Below are positions 13,237 to 27,181 of a stretch of DNA of 53,817 nt, one piece after another. Location: contig JAJZWS010000016.1 of assembly GCA_021846565.1 (NCBI GenBank), positions 1 to 53,817 of the forward strand. The letters are read 5' to 3'. The translations under genes and the position numbers were made by a program. A model generated the notes under the pieces. That model saw nothing but the letters and a program-made list of their open reading frames with translations. It was not told where the DNA came from and did not search any database. Source of the stretch: Bacillota bacterium. GTDB taxonomy: Bacteria; Bacillota; Sulfobacillia; Sulfobacillales; JAIMBI01. Within the stretch, counting starts at the first letter, position 1, and each line of letters begins with the position of its first letter.

Positions 13237-13406
13237 AATCGCATGATAACCGGTGTGGGCGCCAACCGGGGCGCCCGCGGCCAGGCCACCGGGCCACGGG
13301 AATGCACCCCCACGGCTCGGCATCCCCTGCGGCAGGATCCGCCTTCAGAACGAGGCGGTCTTTCCACCCCCGCGGTTTCACACGGTGGCGGGCGGCCGCA
13401 TCCTGC

Positions 13407-20256: not shown

Positions 20257-20874
20257 TCAGACGCGCACCCTGACCGTGGCCAGGGCGGGGTCAAGCTCCC
20301 CGGTGACCACCGCGACGCGCGGGGCCTGCCCCAGTCCAAAGTGGACACGCGTCAGCACGGCGGCCCAGACGGCTCGTCCCGGGGCGTCCAGGTCCTTCGC
20401 GCCACCGACCACCAGCCATACGAGGGGATCCGGCAGGAGGCTCGCCGCCAGTAAGAGGCGCCGCATCTCACCCCCCGACAAGTGGCCGAGCCGCCGGCGA
20501 CGCAAAGGATCCAAGCCCCAGCGGGCGCTTTCCCGATCGATGGCGTCGCGCGACCGGACCCCCGTAAGGTTCCATAACAGGGCGGCGAGCCGCAGGGCGC
20601 CGCGCACCGAGAGGTGCCCCGCCTCCCAAGGCCGGTCGGGCACCAGAGTGGTGCGGCGCTGCCACCCCACCAAGTCGGCGGCGGCCGCCGGCCGGTCGTT
20701 CCACACACGCGTAACCCCGGCCGGCTGCACCACGCCAGCCAGGCACTCCAGGAGCGCCGGTGCCGATCCGCTGCCGTCGTCCACCACCCAGGTCACACCC
20801 GGACCGGCCCGAAAAGCCCGGGCATCTGCGCAATCGACAGTGTCCACCCCAATGCTGGCCAGCTCACGTGTCAT
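20257..20874 (-). CDS. Degenerate ABC transporter ATPase subunit (no Walker A/B, intact signature motif)
   Basis: 205 residues from the ATG at 20874 (ATGA overlap with the gene upstream). The ABC ATPase fold is recognisable from HLSGGEMRRLLLAASLL (residues 131-147), a perfect signature motif and following helix, and from the LD of the D-loop (162-163). The P-loop position reads DDGSGSAPALLECLAG: the Lys and Ser/Thr of G-x-x-G-x-G-K-S/T are gone. Walker B reads VWLVVGGAK, lacking the Asp and the catalytic Glu. The Q-loop Gln is Asp (LVPD) and the switch His is missing (VVTGELD). It cannot hydrolyse ATP alone but can lend its LSGGE to a partner. The ATPase at 24419 has exactly the opposite defects. 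Confidence 0.75.
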   Translation of the reverse strand: MTRELASIGVDTVDCADARAFRAGPGVTWVVDDGSGSAPALLECLAGVVQPAGVTRVWNDRPAAAADLVGWQRRTTLVPDRPWEAGHLSVRGALRLAALLWNLTGVRSRDAIDRESARWGLDPLRRRRLGHLSGGEMRRLLLAASLLPDPLVWLVVGGAKDLDAPGRAVWAAVLTRVHFGLGQAPRVAVVTGELDPALATVRVRV

Positions 20875-21737
20875 GCCGTCCGCTCCCCTCCGGCGCCACG
20901 GGCGCGCCAGAGACCAAACGCCAACACGGCCGCACCCAGCGGCCCCCAGACGGCCACCGGCGCCCTTAAGAGCGCCAGCACCGGAACCCACTCGGGTCGG
21001 CCCGCCGTCAAGGCGATCACCACCGCCAAGAAGTTGGCCACCCCCAGCGCGGTGAGCGCTCCGTTCAGCCGGCGCGGCGGTAGCAGGGCCGAGCCGGCCA
21101 GTCCCAGCGCCAACGACGCGCTGAATCCCACCCCGGCCTCGGCGGCCCAACGACCCAGCTGGGCCGTATCCGCCAGTCCCCCGTACCCGAGCGCAATCGC
21201 CAGCGCCACCACCCCCGTCAACGCCGCCCCTACCCAGCGGGCAGTGCGGGCGCGCGCCGCGGACAGCGGCGCGATTCGTGTCCACGCATCCACCACCCCA
21301 ACGACCTCCGCGCCGCCTCGGCCCACCGCCCAGAAACCCAGCCACGGCGCCATGATGGCCCATAAATCGAGACCGACGGGGCGGTGGGGCAGGAGCGTGG
21401 TAAAAAGCTCGCCGGCGATAAGTAGCAGGGCCGCCAGCGCGGGTGCTACCAGCCGACCGGGCTGGGCCACCACTTGCCACCATGCCAACCGGACCAGGGC
21501 ACCCCGGCGCGGCCCGGCTTCGAGGGGGAGCCGCCACCCCGAAGCCCGCTCAGCCTCGATGCGCGCCCACAGCGTGGTGGAATCCGGGTCCGGGCCGACT
21601 GCCGGCCACTCCTCGCGGTGCTTTGCCAAAAGCGCCTGGTCCTCCGCTGACAAGCCGAGCGCGGACCACTCCACCGTGCGAGCGCGGCGCCGTCCGTCCC
21701 CGGCATCGCGTCCCTCGGCGCCTGGCGGCTGGTTCAC
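20871..21737 (-). CDS. Polytopic membrane protein with N-terminal cytoplasmic domain (transporter half or anti-sigma candidate)
   Basis: 288 residues, start ATG at 21737 overlapping the sigma factor stop (ATGA). The first 95 residues are hydrophilic and charged (ALGLSAEDQALLAKHREEW, TTLWARIEAERASG). About six hydrophobic segments follow, including LVAPALAALLLIAGELF, MAPWLGFWAVG, WVGAALTGVVALAIALGYG, GFSASLALGLAGSALL, ALGVANFLAVVIAL and WGPLGAAVLAFGLW. I do not recognise the family. Position directly after an ECF sigma gene suggests an anti-sigma role for the cytoplasmic domain. Position directly before a degenerate ABC ATPase suggests a permease half. It could be both. Confidence 0.65.
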   Translation of the reverse strand: MNQPPGAEGRDAGDGRRRARTVEWSALGLSAEDQALLAKHREEWPAVGPDPDSTTLWARIEAERASGWRLPLEAGPRRGALVRLAWWQVVAQPGRLVAPALAALLLIAGELFTTLLPHRPVGLDLWAIMAPWLGFWAVGRGGAEVVGVVDAWTRIAPLSAARARTARWVGAALTGVVALAIALGYGGLADTAQLGRWAAEAGVGFSASLALGLAGSALLPPRRLNGALTALGVANFLAVVIALTAGRPEWVPVLALLRAPVAVWGPLGAAVLAFGLWRARGAGGERTA

Positions 21738-22306
21738 GATCCCTCCCCCTTTCGCAACTCGGCCAACAGCCGGGGATACGCCCGCGCCAGCCGCGTCTTG
21801 ACGGTGCCCACCGGCACCTCCAGCACCTCGGCCACCTGTTGGACGGGCAGATCCGCGAAGTAGTGCAGGGACACCGCCGTGCGCTGCTCCCGCGACAAAC
21901 TTTGCAAAGCCTGGTGGAGCGCGTCGGCGGTTTCCACCGCCTCCGTGAAGGGCGGGTCGGGAAAGCGGGCCCCGCGGGCCACGTCCCCGAGTGTCTGCTG
22001 TGCATCCACGACCGTCTCATAGCCCCGCTGGCGAAAGGCGTCGCGCACCCGGTTCATGGCGGCCCGGTAGAGATACGCGCGAAAGCGAAAAGAGGTCGAC
22101 CCCATCGGACCGCGTGTCATCACCGCGACAAACGCGTCTTGCACGACGTCCTCGGCTAAGAGTCTCTCGCCGCTCCACGCCACCAGAAACCGATACAGCC
22201 CGTCGCGGTGGCGCGCGTACAGCACTCCAAACGCCTCGGCACTCCCTTGCCGGGCCGCGCGGTACAGGGTGTCGTCCCCACCCCGTTCGTCTGCCGCGGT
22301 CGTCAT
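21734..22306 (-). CDS. ECF-type RNA polymerase sigma factor (sigma-70 family)
   Basis: 190 residues from the ATG at 22306. Region 2 is clear: EAFGVLYARHRDGLYRFLVAW, then LAEDVVQDAFVAVM (the D-V-V-Q-D-x-F core-binding segment), and FRFRAYLYRAAMNRVRDAFR (region 2.4). Region 4 reads LQSLSREQRTAVSLHYFADLPVQQVAEVLEVPVGTVKTRLARA, a standard -35-recognising helix-turn-helix. The start has no strong ribosome binding site. The gene lies inside an ABC transporter cluster, 85 bp after the permease and overlapping the membrane gene that follows. It probably transcribes this cluster or an envelope-stress regulon and is held by a membrane partner, likely the product of 20871-21737. Confidence 0.9.
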   Translation of the reverse strand: MTTAADERGGDDTLYRAARQGSAEAFGVLYARHRDGLYRFLVAWSGERLLAEDVVQDAFVAVMTRGPMGSTSFRFRAYLYRAAMNRVRDAFRQRGYETVVDAQQTLGDVARGARFPDPPFTEAVETADALHQALQSLSREQRTAVSLHYFADLPVQQVAEVLEVPVGTVKTRLARAYPRLLAELRKGEGS

Positions 22307-22391
22307 AGCCGTCGATTCCAACCCCCGAGCCGGTTCCGCCTTGTCCCTCACAGTAGCAGACCAACCGGAAATCGGTGGCCCAGCCCACTCG

Positions 22392-24422
22392 TCACGCATG
22401 CGGCGCCTCCCGGCGCGCCACGGCGTGCCACCGGGCCACTTGGCGGGCGGTGGGCCACTGCCCGTGCGCCGCGGCCGCGGCGAACTGTCGCCACAGCGGC
22501 TGCACCTGGGTCCGCGTGAGCCCCGCAAAACCGTTCACCTGGGTGGGAAACGGTCCGCCCACACCGCTGCCATCCACGCCCGCCAGGCCCGGCCAACGGT
22601 TTAAGAGCCAAAGCAGCACGCGATCCGCGGGCCGCTGGTTGACCGCCCACGGCCGGTCCAACGAGGCGAAGCGCGTCCAGTGGGGCGAGATGGCCGACCA
22701 CAACAGCGCCATCTGATCCACCGACCCGGTGAACGCGATGGATAGGGCGGGGTTGGCCGTGAAAGCTACGGACATGGCCGGCAGCCAAGGGGGCGTGCCC
22801 GAGAGGATCAAGGGGCCGACCGGGGCCGCAATGGGGTTGGGATTGTCCAAGGCCACCAGGCCATTGGGCACCGAACCAAACGTCACGTCCATGGCGTTTA
22901 AGCGGCGGACCGACACCCCGGCCGCTTCCGCGCGGAGGGCCCCGGCCGTCGGCTGATAGTCCTCCGCGTAGGGCAGGATCATGCCCATATGCCCGTAGGC
23001 CCGTTGGAAGGTCGCTTGCTCCGACGGACCCGCCCACAGCGTGATGCCATGCGTCACCACCGGGGCGAAGGTGCCGGCCACCAGCGTCACCCCCGTGGTG
23101 GCACGGCCCACCGCCCTGAGCCCTAGTCTCCCCAGGTTGCTTTCCACGACGGGCCAAGGCGCCCGGACCGACACCGTGTACCGGGCAACTGCTGGCGTGT
23201 TGACTTGGGTCGGGTCTGGGGGCACCACCGGGTACCAGCCGCCTGCGGGTAGGTACGCCCCCGCCCCTGAGGTGAACGCGGTAGTGACCGGGTTTCGGCC
23301 GTTGCCAGACCAGCCCCACTCATCCAAAAGCCCCCCGTAACGCACCACGACCGCGCCCGATCCGGCGCGGTGGCCCGCCACCCGAATGTAGCCTCCCGAC
23401 CGGAGAAACGGCACGGACCGCCCATTTACGCTCACCGCCGACACCTGGAGTGCCGGGTTGAGCCACAGGTCCGCCAGTGTCGATACCGGACGAATGGTCG
23501 CCGTGGCGGCCACGGTGCCGCCCCGGCGAACGGCGAGCGCAATGCGTTCGCTCGCGATGGCGGGTTGACGGGCCCCGCCTACGGGCGGAGTGGGCGACGG
23601 GGAGTGAGGACGCCACGCCGCCGCCAGCGTGATGGCCAGCAAGGCGAGGGTGACGAAGGCGCTGGGCCCCCTCATCTGCCACCGGCGGTCTGGCAGGTTC
23701 AGCCGCCGAAGGAGAGAGGCCCCCACCAACAGCACGGTGGCGGCGGCCATCAAGCCCATAACGGCGTGAAAAAGCCCGGTAAACCCGCCAAAGCCCCAGG
23801 TGTCGGACCCGGCGCCCGCCAGCACGGTCCATGGCGTCATGGCCGTGAGCCCGGTGCCTAGGATCCAACCGGGCGAGGCGCTTCTTACCAACAGGGTCGT
23901 GTTGGCCACGACGCCCGCCAGCGGCACGCCCACCACGACCGCCATGCCGGCGGGTCCCGGCCAAAAGCTGCCCACCCACGCGCCGAAACTCCACAACAGG
24001 GCAAAGTCCAGCCACAACATGGCGGCGAGGTCGCCGGCGTCGGCCCATCCCTGCAGAGCGTTCGCCGTCACGGCCACCACCCCACCAGTCAGGAGCAGCG
24101 CGGCAGCCCCGGTGACCACCCCGATTCCCCCCAACTCCGCCACCCAGGCGCCAGCGCCGGAGCTCAGCCACACGGACCGCAGCGTGCCGACATCCCCCGC
24201 CGCGCGCCGATAGCCCGTGTACGCCCACACCAGGCTGGTGGGCAGCATGCACAGGATGGGCGCCCACACCAGCCAGGGCAGCGGCCCCTCGCGCAGCGTG
24301 GCGACCGCCACCACACCCACCGGCGCGGCGACGGCCACCACCAGGACCCACCACAAGAGCCGGGTGTGTCGGAGCCAGCCCGCAAGCATGCGGATTTCCA
24401 AGCGGATGAGCCGCGCGGTCAT
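22392..24422 (-). CDS. ABC-2-type permease fused to a large extracytoplasmic M1-like beta domain
   Basis: 676 residues from the ATG at 24422 (ATGA overlap with the ATPase stop). Residues about 15-285 contain roughly seven hydrophobic segments (LLWWVLVVAVAAPVGVVAV through FVTLALLAITLAAAW), typical of an ABC-2 permease. The remaining 390 residues are outside the membrane. They begin with beta-sandwich-like strands: LQVSAVSVNGRSVPFL, AVVVRYGGLLDEWG, then GAYLPAGGWYPVVPP. That order resembles the N-terminal domain of M1 aminopeptidases, which occur fused to ABC permeases in some Bacillota. No HExxH zinc motif is present, so any peptidase activity is lost. Likely role: peptide or antibiotic export or sensing. 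Confidence 0.72.
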   Translation of the reverse strand: MTARLIRLEIRMLAGWLRHTRLLWWVLVVAVAAPVGVVAVATLREGPLPWLVWAPILCMLPTSLVWAYTGYRRAAGDVGTLRSVWLSSGAGAWVAELGGIGVVTGAAALLLTGGVVAVTANALQGWADAGDLAAMLWLDFALLWSFGAWVGSFWPGPAGMAVVVGVPLAGVVANTTLLVRSASPGWILGTGLTAMTPWTVLAGAGSDTWGFGGFTGLFHAVMGLMAAATVLLVGASLLRRLNLPDRRWQMRGPSAFVTLALLAITLAAAWRPHSPSPTPPVGGARQPAIASERIALAVRRGGTVAATATIRPVSTLADLWLNPALQVSAVSVNGRSVPFLRSGGYIRVAGHRAGSGAVVVRYGGLLDEWGWSGNGRNPVTTAFTSGAGAYLPAGGWYPVVPPDPTQVNTPAVARYTVSVRAPWPVVESNLGRLGLRAVGRATTGVTLVAGTFAPVVTHGITLWAGPSEQATFQRAYGHMGMILPYAEDYQPTAGALRAEAAGVSVRRLNAMDVTFGSVPNGLVALDNPNPIAAPVGPLILSGTPPWLPAMSVAFTANPALSIAFTGSVDQMALLWSAISPHWTRFASLDRPWAVNQRPADRVLLWLLNRWPGLAGVDGSGVGGPFPTQVNGFAGLTRTQVQPLWRQFAAAAAHGQWPTARQVARWHAVARREAPHA

Positions 24423-25336
24423 CGAGACACCACCCGTCGGCGTGCCAGCACCAACGCCTGGTGGCCGTCTTCGACTGTCGGAACCGCCAATTCCTCGGTC
24501 ACGTCCGGGGGCACCGGCACCGGGCCCACCACTCGCACCGCCACCCGGTCCTCGGCCGGGTAAATTGCCGTCGCCGCAGCTCCGGCGAGCGGCAGGGCCG
24601 CCAGCCATGACTCCCCCGCACGGTCCCAGAGATCGACGGGCCAGTGCGTCAGACGCACTTGGCCCGCGCCGGCAGCGGCAACGGCCTCGGGCGACCCGTC
24701 GGCCAGCACCGCGCCATCGGCGATGACCACCACGCGCCCGGCCCGCCCCATCACCGCGGGACCGACGTGCATCGCCACGATGACGGTGGCCGATTGGCTG
24801 CGTTCCAACAAGAGAGTGCCGAGCCGCTCCTGGTCTCGTGGGGGCAGGCGCTCGGTGGGCTCGTCCAAGATCCACACCGGCGGCGCGCCCAAAAGAGACT
24901 GCGCCACCAGGGCCCACTGCTGCACCCGTCCGGGGGCGCGAGTCAACGACACTGGGTCCTGCGCTGCGACCCCCAGCGTTTCCAACAAGTCTTCCGCCAC
25001 GCTGGCGGCCGCCCGCCACGATCCGAGTCCCCGCTGGACGGCGGCGGCCGCGACCCAGTCGCGGGCCGTCAAGTGATGATCTAAGTGGGCCCCCTGCGGG
25101 ACATAACCAACATTCGCCCGCAGGTGTGCCACGTCGCGCGGGAATTCCCAGCGGTCGAAGCCCACGCGTCCCTGGGTGGGCGTGAGCACCGTGGCCATGA
25201 TTTTCAACAGCGTGCTTTTGCCCGCGCCGTTGGCCCCCAGCACAACGTGCAGGCCGGGGCCAAACGCGAGCGTCACGTCCGCGAGCACCCGGTGCGTGCG
25301 AAAGCGCTGAGACACCTGCCGCACCCACACCTCCAC
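24419..25336 (-). CDS. ABC transporter ATP-binding protein with degenerate signature motif
   Basis: 305 residues, GTG start at 25336 with AAAGGA upstream. Walker A is intact (GANGAGKST, Lys40), as are the Q-loop (GYVPQ, Gln81), Walker B with catalytic Glu (VWILDEP, Asp158/Glu159) and the switch His (VAMHV, His190). The signature motif, expected between residues 132 and 140, reads TRAPGRVQQ instead of LSGGQxQR. The D-loop reads ERLPPRD without the usual LD. A homodimer would have two crippled sites; pairing with the LSGGE-containing but Walker-less subunit at 20257 would rebuild exactly one complete composite site. A C-terminal extension of about 90 residues follows the nucleotide-binding domain. 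It is the first gene of the cluster. Confidence 0.88.
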   Translation of the reverse strand: MEVWVRQVSQRFRTHRVLADVTLAFGPGLHVVLGANGAGKSTLLKIMATVLTPTQGRVGFDRWEFPRDVAHLRANVGYVPQGAHLDHHLTARDWVAAAAVQRGLGSWRAAASVAEDLLETLGVAAQDPVSLTRAPGRVQQWALVAQSLLGAPPVWILDEPTERLPPRDQERLGTLLLERSQSATVIVAMHVGPAVMGRAGRVVVIADGAVLADGSPEAVAAAGAGQVRLTHWPVDLWDRAGESWLAALPLAGAAATAIYPAEDRVAVRVVGPVPVPPDVTEELAVPTVEDGHQALVLARRRVVSR

Positions 25337-25457
25337 GGCATCCCGTTCCTTTCACGTGGTCGGCCCCGGCACCGGTCAGGCCGCACGGGCTTTTGGATGA
25401 GACGGGTGGCGCGCCGTTCTGGTTTCACCGATTTCGCCTGGCCCGGGCGAGCGTCGC

Positions 25458-26743: not shown

Positions 26744-27181
26744 CTAGTCGGGAAACAGGGACAAGTACTCGCCGTAGCCCTCCGCCGCCAACTGGTCCTT
26801 CGGCACGAACCGCAGGGCCGCCGAATTGATGCAGTAGCGCAGACCCCCCTGATCGCGGGGCCCATCGTTGAAGACATGGCCCAGATGGGCCCCGGTGTCC
26901 GTGGAGGTGACCTCGGTGCGCACCATGCCGTGGCTCAGATCCACGTGCTTGCCAATCCGCTCCGTGCTCATGGGCTGCGAAAAGCTGGGCCACCCACAGT
27001 CGGAGTCAAACTTGTCCCGCGAGCAAAACAACGGCACACCCGAAATCACGTCGACGTACAAGCCTTCTTCATGATGGTCCCAGTACGGATTCTGAAACGG
27101 CGGCTCCGTGCCTTTTTCCTGCGTTACCTCAAATGCCAGCGGGCTGAGCCGCGCTCGCAGGGTTTCACGATCCGTCGCCAT
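26744..27181 (-). CDS. msrB: Peptide-methionine (R)-S-oxide reductase
   Basis: 145 residues. ATG at 27181 has GGAGGT six bases upstream. MsrB reduces the R epimer of methionine sulfoxide in proteins, with thioredoxin as reductant. Visible hallmarks are [22 protein letters not shown] and [11 protein letters not shown], where Cys117 is the catalytic nucleophile; Cys62 in DCGWPSF is a likely resolving Cys. The two CxxC pairs that bind zinc in many MsrBs are missing (YVDVISG and TSTDTG at those places), so this is the zinc-free type. It is a single-domain protein of normal length, transcribed alone; no msrA is nearby. Confidence 0.95.

Follow-up and report, generated by a model that had tools for sequence, protein, structure and literature searches.

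We analysed a stretch of 53,817 nucleotides (the window), contig 94 of a draft genome of a Bacillota bacterium of the class Sulfobacillia (3.4 Mb in 134 contigs; assembly GCA_021846565.1, contig JAJZWS010000016.1), in which two ATP-binding cassette (ABC) ATPases, here called A and B, lie at either end of one minus-strand operon. Five tightly packed genes follow one another in the order A, P0003, an extracytoplasmic function (ECF) sigma factor, P0005 and B. A first-pass annotation made from the sequence had placed the sigma factor gene and one membrane protein between the two ATPases; both are there, but the intervening genes are actually three, the sigma factor and two membrane proteins. Starts and stops of adjoining genes overlap except before the sigma gene, and P0005 overlaps both of its neighbours. 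In the sigma factor, sigma-70 regions 2 and 4 both score above the Pfam cut-off. Below, the source genome of the window is labeled G000 and its three congeners G001, G002 and G003.

Table 1 Coordinates of the two ATPases and their motifs, the other operon genes, the putative promoter and the sister operon of the same genome.
Feature	Coordinates	Strand	Description
ATPase A	24419..25336	-	305 aa, GTG start; PF00005 73.5 bits
A Walker A GANGAGKST	25211-25237	-	intact
A Q-loop Gln, VPQG	25091-25102	-	intact
A signature TRAPGRVQQ	24917-24943	-	degenerate; Ser to Pro135, second Gly to Arg137
A Walker B WILDEP	24857-24874	-	intact
A D-loop ERLPPRD	24833-24853	-	degenerate; Asp to Pro
A switch His	24761-24778	-	intact
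ATPase B	20257..20874	-	205 aa; LSGGE and D-loop intact, cis motifs lost
B Walker A DDGSGSAPALL	20749-20781	-	wrecked; Lys to Ala
B signature LSGGE	20467-20481	-	intact
B D-loop LD	20380-20397	-	intact
P0003	22392..24422	-	676 aa membrane protein; hydrophobic segments at the N-terminus followed by an outer domain of ~400 aa
ECF sigma factor	21734..22306	-	190 aa from ATG 22306; PF08281 57.8 bits, PF04542 45.7 bits
P0005	20871..21737	-	288 aa; soluble N-terminus of ~85 aa and about 6 hydrophobic segments
ECF-like promoter TGAAACC-N16-CGTCTCA	25398..25427	-	ends 61 bases ahead of A
Sister operon	G000:C7, L149:2727-7455		order NBD1, NBD2, membrane protein, X-like gene

Within an ABC dimer, the Walker, Q-loop and H-loop residues of a nucleotide-binding domain (NBD) act on its own ATP and the signature acts on that of the partner, with the D-loop placed at the interface between the subunits, not on the nucleotide (PMC7756269, in the portion available to us). 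We assigned these motifs on a joint alignment of A and B with canonical relatives, for which three of eight canonical reference loci passed selection. The first-pass annotation had described A as keeping its cis motifs while its signature and D-loop were ruined, and the joint alignment agrees at all assigned motifs; the first signature Gly is retained. Misalignment of the A signature was considered and ruled out, as the helix after the signature aligns gap-free to that of canonical A proteins. B is the mirror image, again as described at first pass: LSGGE and the LD of the D-loop are intact and the cis residues are lost, the Q-loop Gln being replaced by Asp, the Walker B Asp by Val and Glu by Gly, and the switch His by Glu, in addition to the loss of the Walker A Lys. 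In the ungapped register the first Walker A Gly of B is replaced by Asp32, identical in all four genomes of the genus, with the limit that the profile alignment puts the Walker A stretch of the four congeneric B proteins in other registers. The comparison with canonical relatives, which had been proposed as a check, thus confirmed the motif columns of both proteins and revealed no misassignment. A scores 73.5 bits against PF00005, above the cut-off of 25, and B falls just below it at 24.1 bits. If A and B pair, one composite site would be canonical and the other degenerate.

These motif states recur in the three congeneric genomes. Lys, Gln, Asp, Glu and His of A are each present in four of four genomes, the signature Pro and Arg are identical in all four, and the D-loop Asp is replaced by Pro or Ser. 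For B, the signature Ser, both Gly residues and the D-loop Asp are kept in 4/4, as is LSGGE as a whole, and Lys, Gln, Asp, Glu and His in 0/4. The ratio of nonsynonymous to synonymous substitution rates (dN/dS) is 0.18-0.29 for A and 0.16-0.28 for B (six pairs each; dS reaches 1.3 and is thus partly saturated), and the rest of the operon is likewise under purifying selection. A frameshift or pseudogene origin is ruled out by conservation in four genomes together with a dN/dS near 0.2. The loss pattern is also unusual for ABC domains of the host genome: among its other aligned ABC rows the signature Ser is kept in 48/48, the second Gly in 47/48, the Walker A Lys in 49/49, the Walker B Asp in 46/47, the catalytic Glu in 42/47 and the switch His in 44/47. 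This control started from 56 ABC matches, of which five were left out (four partial, one with two stops), and some proteins contribute more than one row.

We consider it probable that A and B supply the two NBDs of a heteromeric ABC transporter and function as an obligate heterodimer in which one site alone hydrolyses ATP. A, which has its Walker motifs and switch His but not its signature, should form no canonical homodimer site; it would therefore need a signature donor, and B is encoded in the same operon. In the predicted live site, Walker A, Walker B, the Q-loop and the switch His of A would be closed by the LSGGE and D-loop of B. In the second site, the lost Walker motifs of B would face the lost signature of A; no hydrolysis would be expected there and probably no ATP binding, and the Walker A of B is so wrecked that nucleotide binding seems improbable. 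A would drive P0003 and B would drive P0005, giving a 2+2 transporter, and transcription of the operon would start from the ECF-like promoter, the most likely sigma factor being the one that the operon encodes and P0005 being a candidate anti-sigma factor. The signature could instead be borrowed from an unlinked ABC ATPase, leaving B as a relict. Dozens of other NBDs with intact signatures are indeed encoded in the genome, yet B shares the operon and its overlapping genes and has a dN/dS of 0.16-0.28 and LSGGE in 4/4, and the second locus of this operon type that is present in G001 and G002 was not found on search in G000 or G003. We regard an unlinked donor as highly unlikely.

Relatives of the operon provide a wider view of the two ATPases. 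Of 154 genomes of the class, 15 matched a P0003-family profile, two of these (G091 and G093) weakly, and so did 4 of 398 genomes of a phylum sample, three of these being from the class and one weak; no more than seven (class) or two (phylum) candidates per genome were scored, so that misses are possible. Strong matches were confined to one class among the genomes sampled. The usual gene order in relatives is A, X, P0003, sigma, P0005, B, where X is a membrane protein of ~240 aa. Distant loci depart from it: those of G110 and G093 run from sigma through a membrane gene that takes the position of P0005 to B and then A, and that of G091 has A, membrane genes, sigma and B in this order. Gene context was read for the 14 main loci and for further selected loci, the weaker B matches excepted. 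One B row (B_G055), an ABC open reading frame outside any A-P0003 context, was dropped, and B_G093 is missing from the residue count, having been wrongly cut by the trimming rule.

On the joint alignment, A keeps Lys, Gln, the Walker B Asp, Glu and His in 18/18 rows. Outside the genus it is canonical at all nine tested positions (14/14 rows), and only the four congeneric genomes lack its signature Ser, second Gly and D-loop Asp. It could be supposed that A binds nucleotide without hydrolysing it, ATP binding then gating the transporter or signaling through P0005 and the sigma factor, with no catalytic site in vivo. Degenerate ABC pairs can in principle be nucleotide-gated, and a TAP D-loop mutant is (PMC7756269, portion available), but the catalytic Glu and switch His, kept in every A row, would be needless in a site that only binds, which renders this explanation improbable.

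B follows the opposite course. A derived B clade (16 rows, support 100/99) retains the signature Ser, the second Gly and the D-loop Asp without exception (16/16), and the cis residues far less often: Lys in 3/16 (those of G004, G006 and G008), Gln in 0/16, the Walker B Asp in 6/16, Glu in 2/16 and His in 0/16, the His column being a gap in 10 of the 16 rows, where by eye no His follows that strand. This split between kept and lost residues is what a one-site A-B heterodimer would predict. A different explanation makes B a regulatory pseudo-ATPase of the sigma/P0005 branch, which docks on A or P0005, senses the state of the transporter and completes no catalytic site, A working in some other assembly. 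Gene order is in keeping with such a role, in that B is encoded directly after the P0005 family, itself directly after sigma, in the loci read through; the A proteins outside the genus, canonical in 14/14, could homodimerise, and the Walker motifs of B are variably decayed. A pure sensor, however, would have no reason to keep the signature Ser and Gly and the D-loop Asp throughout while its cis residues are lost, and the congeneric A, with no intact signature, requires a donor. We think this role for B unlikely, if less so than hydrolysis-free binding by A.

The relatives also suggest an order of events. The B proteins of distant loci are near-canonical: that of G110 has only the first signature Gly changed; that of G091 has lost the Gln, has Glu for the D-loop Asp and a changed first signature Gly; and that of G093, read directly, has an intact Walker A and DEP, the signature YSTGQ and Asp for the switch His. 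Judged from these alignments and trees, the own site of B died first and its signature Ser and Gly never decayed, and the A signature appears to have decayed once, late, on the genus stem after the split from G014 (A grouping 98/91). A and B are co-inherited, most groupings being common to their trees; an exception is the second copy of G008, which groups with G088 and G132 in the A tree (93/83) and with G011, G021 and G029 in the B tree (91/71). Homologues of B without A had been named at first pass as evidence against pairing, and their existence was not established: 13 of the 16 derived B genes share a contig with A, two (G004 and G021) have A on another contig of the genome, and for the remaining one, the second copy of G002 on short contigs, no A was recovered.

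A second complementary NBD pair, adjacent on contig 7 of the same genome, surfaced through the in-genome motif control. In this sister operon of G000, NBD1 has an intact FSGGM signature but ETP where DEP is expected and Thr at the switch His position, and NBD2 has intact Walker motifs and His with LSAS for LSGG. The membrane protein of this operon and P0003 have related outer domains (hhalign probability 97%, E 1e-10, 216 columns). The sister membrane protein was matched in 20 of 46 genomes; we read 20 sister loci, of which G018 gave NBD2 only, leaving 19 complete. Because the switch His served to tell NBD1 from NBD2, the difference in this column is by construction. NBD1 keeps the Lys in 19/19, Gln in 12/19, the Walker B Asp in 15/19, the signature Ser in 19/19, the second Gly in 18/19 (G026 being without it) and the D-loop Asp in 19/19. 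NBD2 keeps the Lys, Walker B Asp and Glu in 20/20 and the Gln in 18/20, with the signature Ser in 7/20 and the second Gly in 4/20. The complementary pattern fits 17 of the 19 complete loci. In a tree with six sister loci (eight close rows were left out), NBD1 (100/99) and NBD2 (100/100) each form a clade separate from those of A (98/98) and B (100/99); complementary decay thus seems to have arisen at least twice in this transporter group. Elsewhere in G000, close NBDs with altered Walker B or signature residues lie on contigs 118 (L099/L101), 63 (L008/L107) and 122 (L110/L119); these resemble ordinary heterodimeric ABC exporters.

For the membrane proteins, P0005 is a candidate second permease half and/or anti-sigma factor; its position directly after sigma and its soluble N-terminus make it a candidate for the latter. 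Comparison of P0003, X and P0005 by hhalign gave one suggestive pair, P0003 and X (score 35.7, probability 22%), and a distant relative in G091 has a sub-threshold match to PF12730 (17.8 bits against 27). A search for related solved structures returned none for P0003 or P0005 and two chance-level receptor matches for X (E about 0.7). The X profile had no match in G000 or G003; its matches in G001 and G002 are confined to the X of the second, separate locus, so the orthologous operon is without X in all four congeneric genomes. In G008:C199 (L042:10181-11634), two tandem X genes lie between A and the P0003 homologue.

Several observations weigh against an A-B heterodimer with one hydrolytic site. 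(i) The two degeneracies had been proposed always to co-occur, and they do not: in 8 of the 11 paired loci of the derived clade outside the genus, a canonical A with an intact signature stands beside a B without the Walker A Lys, the very combination that the first-pass annotation had listed as counting against strict co-occurrence. In these eight loci A is probably constrained in some other way, by A-A dimers with X or by structure. (ii) The 16 derived B rows are nested, the trees needing at least two independent losses of the Lys, and in G004 and G021 A and B were paired across contigs. (iii) Some related loci are imperfect: the P0003 homologue of G014 (L043:3065-5168) is split over several frames, a locus that may be decaying or may hold assembly errors, the P0003 homologue of G029 has an in-frame TGA, and a TAG interrupts the P0005 homologue at G001:C44. 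(iv) In the sister operon the catalytic Glu of NBD1 is kept in 10/19 and the D-loop Asp of NBD2 in 20/20, and the two loci that do not fit are G006, where NBD2 keeps Ser and the second Gly (LSPG), and G026, where NBD1 has VSCA. (v) No Pfam family matched at E 0.05 in any of the members searched (P0003, 0/11; P0005, 0/9; X, 0/9), so that the role of these proteins as permease halves rests on hydropathy and gene order, and P0005 matched no anti-sigma family in Pfam or NCBIfam. (vi) AlphaFold models from four-sequence alignments were unusable, with a mean predicted local distance difference test score of 41.9 for P0005 and 39.0 for B. What stands of the proposed one-canonical-site pairing is the partition of the residues, which is well supported by A (18/18), B (16/16) and the sister loci (17/19); strict co-occurrence does not stand.

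A model with two assemblies would accommodate the canonical A proteins of the relatives, and we hold it as tentative, possible but doubtful in its full form. In genomes with X, A may assemble with it into A-A engines as well as into the A-B engine, and the former use would keep the A signature alive in relatives though the Walker site of B is dead. Loss of X would then have released the A signature, the dead interface being sealed nucleotide-free, and P0005 and the ECF sigma factor would sense the ATPase state of A-B. A is ruined in the four loci without X and canonical in the 11 paired loci of the derived clade beyond the genus, all with X, a coincidence that amounts to one evolutionary event. 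Arg137 of A and Asp32 of B are shared by all four congeneric genomes, and none of the other derived loci aligned has either, the position of Asp32 being Gly in the other 12 derived B proteins on the joint alignment. As both residues would fall in the same dead site, we speculate that a salt bridge between them could replace the nucleotide.

Upstream of A lies a putative ECF-like promoter, 46-61 bases ahead of it in all four congeneric genomes. The pattern was read off those four upstream regions, so its presence there is by construction; none of the four genomes has another exact match. If one mismatch is allowed, there are three more matches over the four genomes, against four for a reversed control. 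In the window, 0.07 matches with at most one mismatch are expected by chance and two were observed, the site itself and a one-mismatch match at 13352-13380, likewise on the minus strand. Of 11 loci outside the genus, four (G004, G014, G088 and the second copy of G001) have looser ECF-like patterns upstream of A and seven do not, the start of A being an estimate in some of the seven. The link to an ECF sigma factor and the single exact promoter match per genome suggest that the transporter may report its own state. Farther upstream, at 26744-27181 of the window, lies a gene that resembles one for a methionine sulfoxide reductase; in G001 the apparent end of its homologue is within 250 bases of A, and the neighbourhood upstream of the operon seems partly conserved.

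Why dead ATP sites persist in many ABC proteins is a standing question. This operon family offers a natural series, from near-canonical pairs (G110, G091 and G093) through loci in which B is half dead (G004, G006 and G008) and loci in which B is without the Walker A Lys (G014, G011, G088 and others) to the genus in which the half contributed by A is lost too, and the sister operon went a similar way on separate branches. With A and B encoded by separate genes, site swaps and mixed dimers are directly testable, which is harder in fused pumps such as Pdr5.

Among known systems, the B. subtilis (Bacillus subtilis) operon sigY-yxlCDEFG comprises an ECF sigma factor, sigma regulators and an ABC ATPase/permease pair, with one ATPase. 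We know of no degenerate ATPase partner in it. It thus resembles the present operon in joining an ECF sigma factor and regulators to an ABC ATPase and permease, and differs in having one ATPase (gene names as in the available part of PMC4326333).

In type I exporters the degenerate site commonly departs from consensus in the catalytic Glu and the signature, and sometimes in the His. The portion of PMC7756269 available to us covers part of this, and from it and from abstracts TM287/288, BmrCD, TAP1/2 and CFTR are heterodimers or pseudodimers with one consensus and one degenerate site, as proposed here; in the present pair, by contrast, the dead site has lost nearly every motif and the two ATPases are separate subunits. 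ABCG5/G8 also combines signature and Walker A changes (Lys to Arg) in its dead site (PMC7756269 and PMC8100176, in part), but these are eukaryotic half-transporters with a milder change. The sister operon is a complementary NBD pair of the same genome with a related outer domain; it differs in its milder decay, with the Walker A Lys in both NBDs, and in that its NBDs form separate clades.

The first-pass annotation had called the asymmetry more extreme than that of TAP or CFTR, and rightly so, but Pdr5 is a published near-equal (PMC8421411, PMC7756269, in the portions available). Pdr5 has one canonical site and a dead one in which every motif except the D-loop is altered; the live site takes its VSGGE from NBD1, whose Walker motifs are dead, and the signature of NBD2 is LNVEQ (same sources and portions). 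The NBD with dead Walker motifs thus has the intact signature and that with live Walker motifs a ruined one, as in B and A. Pdr5 is, however, a single polypeptide that keeps the D-loop and in whose dead site ATP has been seen, whereas here there are two genes, A has lost the D-loop Asp, and the Walker A of B lacks the Lys and all three consensus glycines. The operon also lacks the NBD-TMD-NBD-TMD polypeptide (TMD, transmembrane domain) that marks the pleiotropic drug resistance (PDR) subfamily, its ATPases and membrane proteins being separate genes. No bacterial operon of this kind was recognisable from the titles and abstract openings among the literature matches listed, which does not prove that none has been described. 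The principle of asymmetry is not new, and Pdr5 is its nearest precedent. What differs here is that the ATPases are separately encoded, in a bacterial operon with an ECF sigma factor and membrane proteins of no named family, that A has lost its D-loop Asp, and that an ordered series of intermediates is preserved among the relatives.

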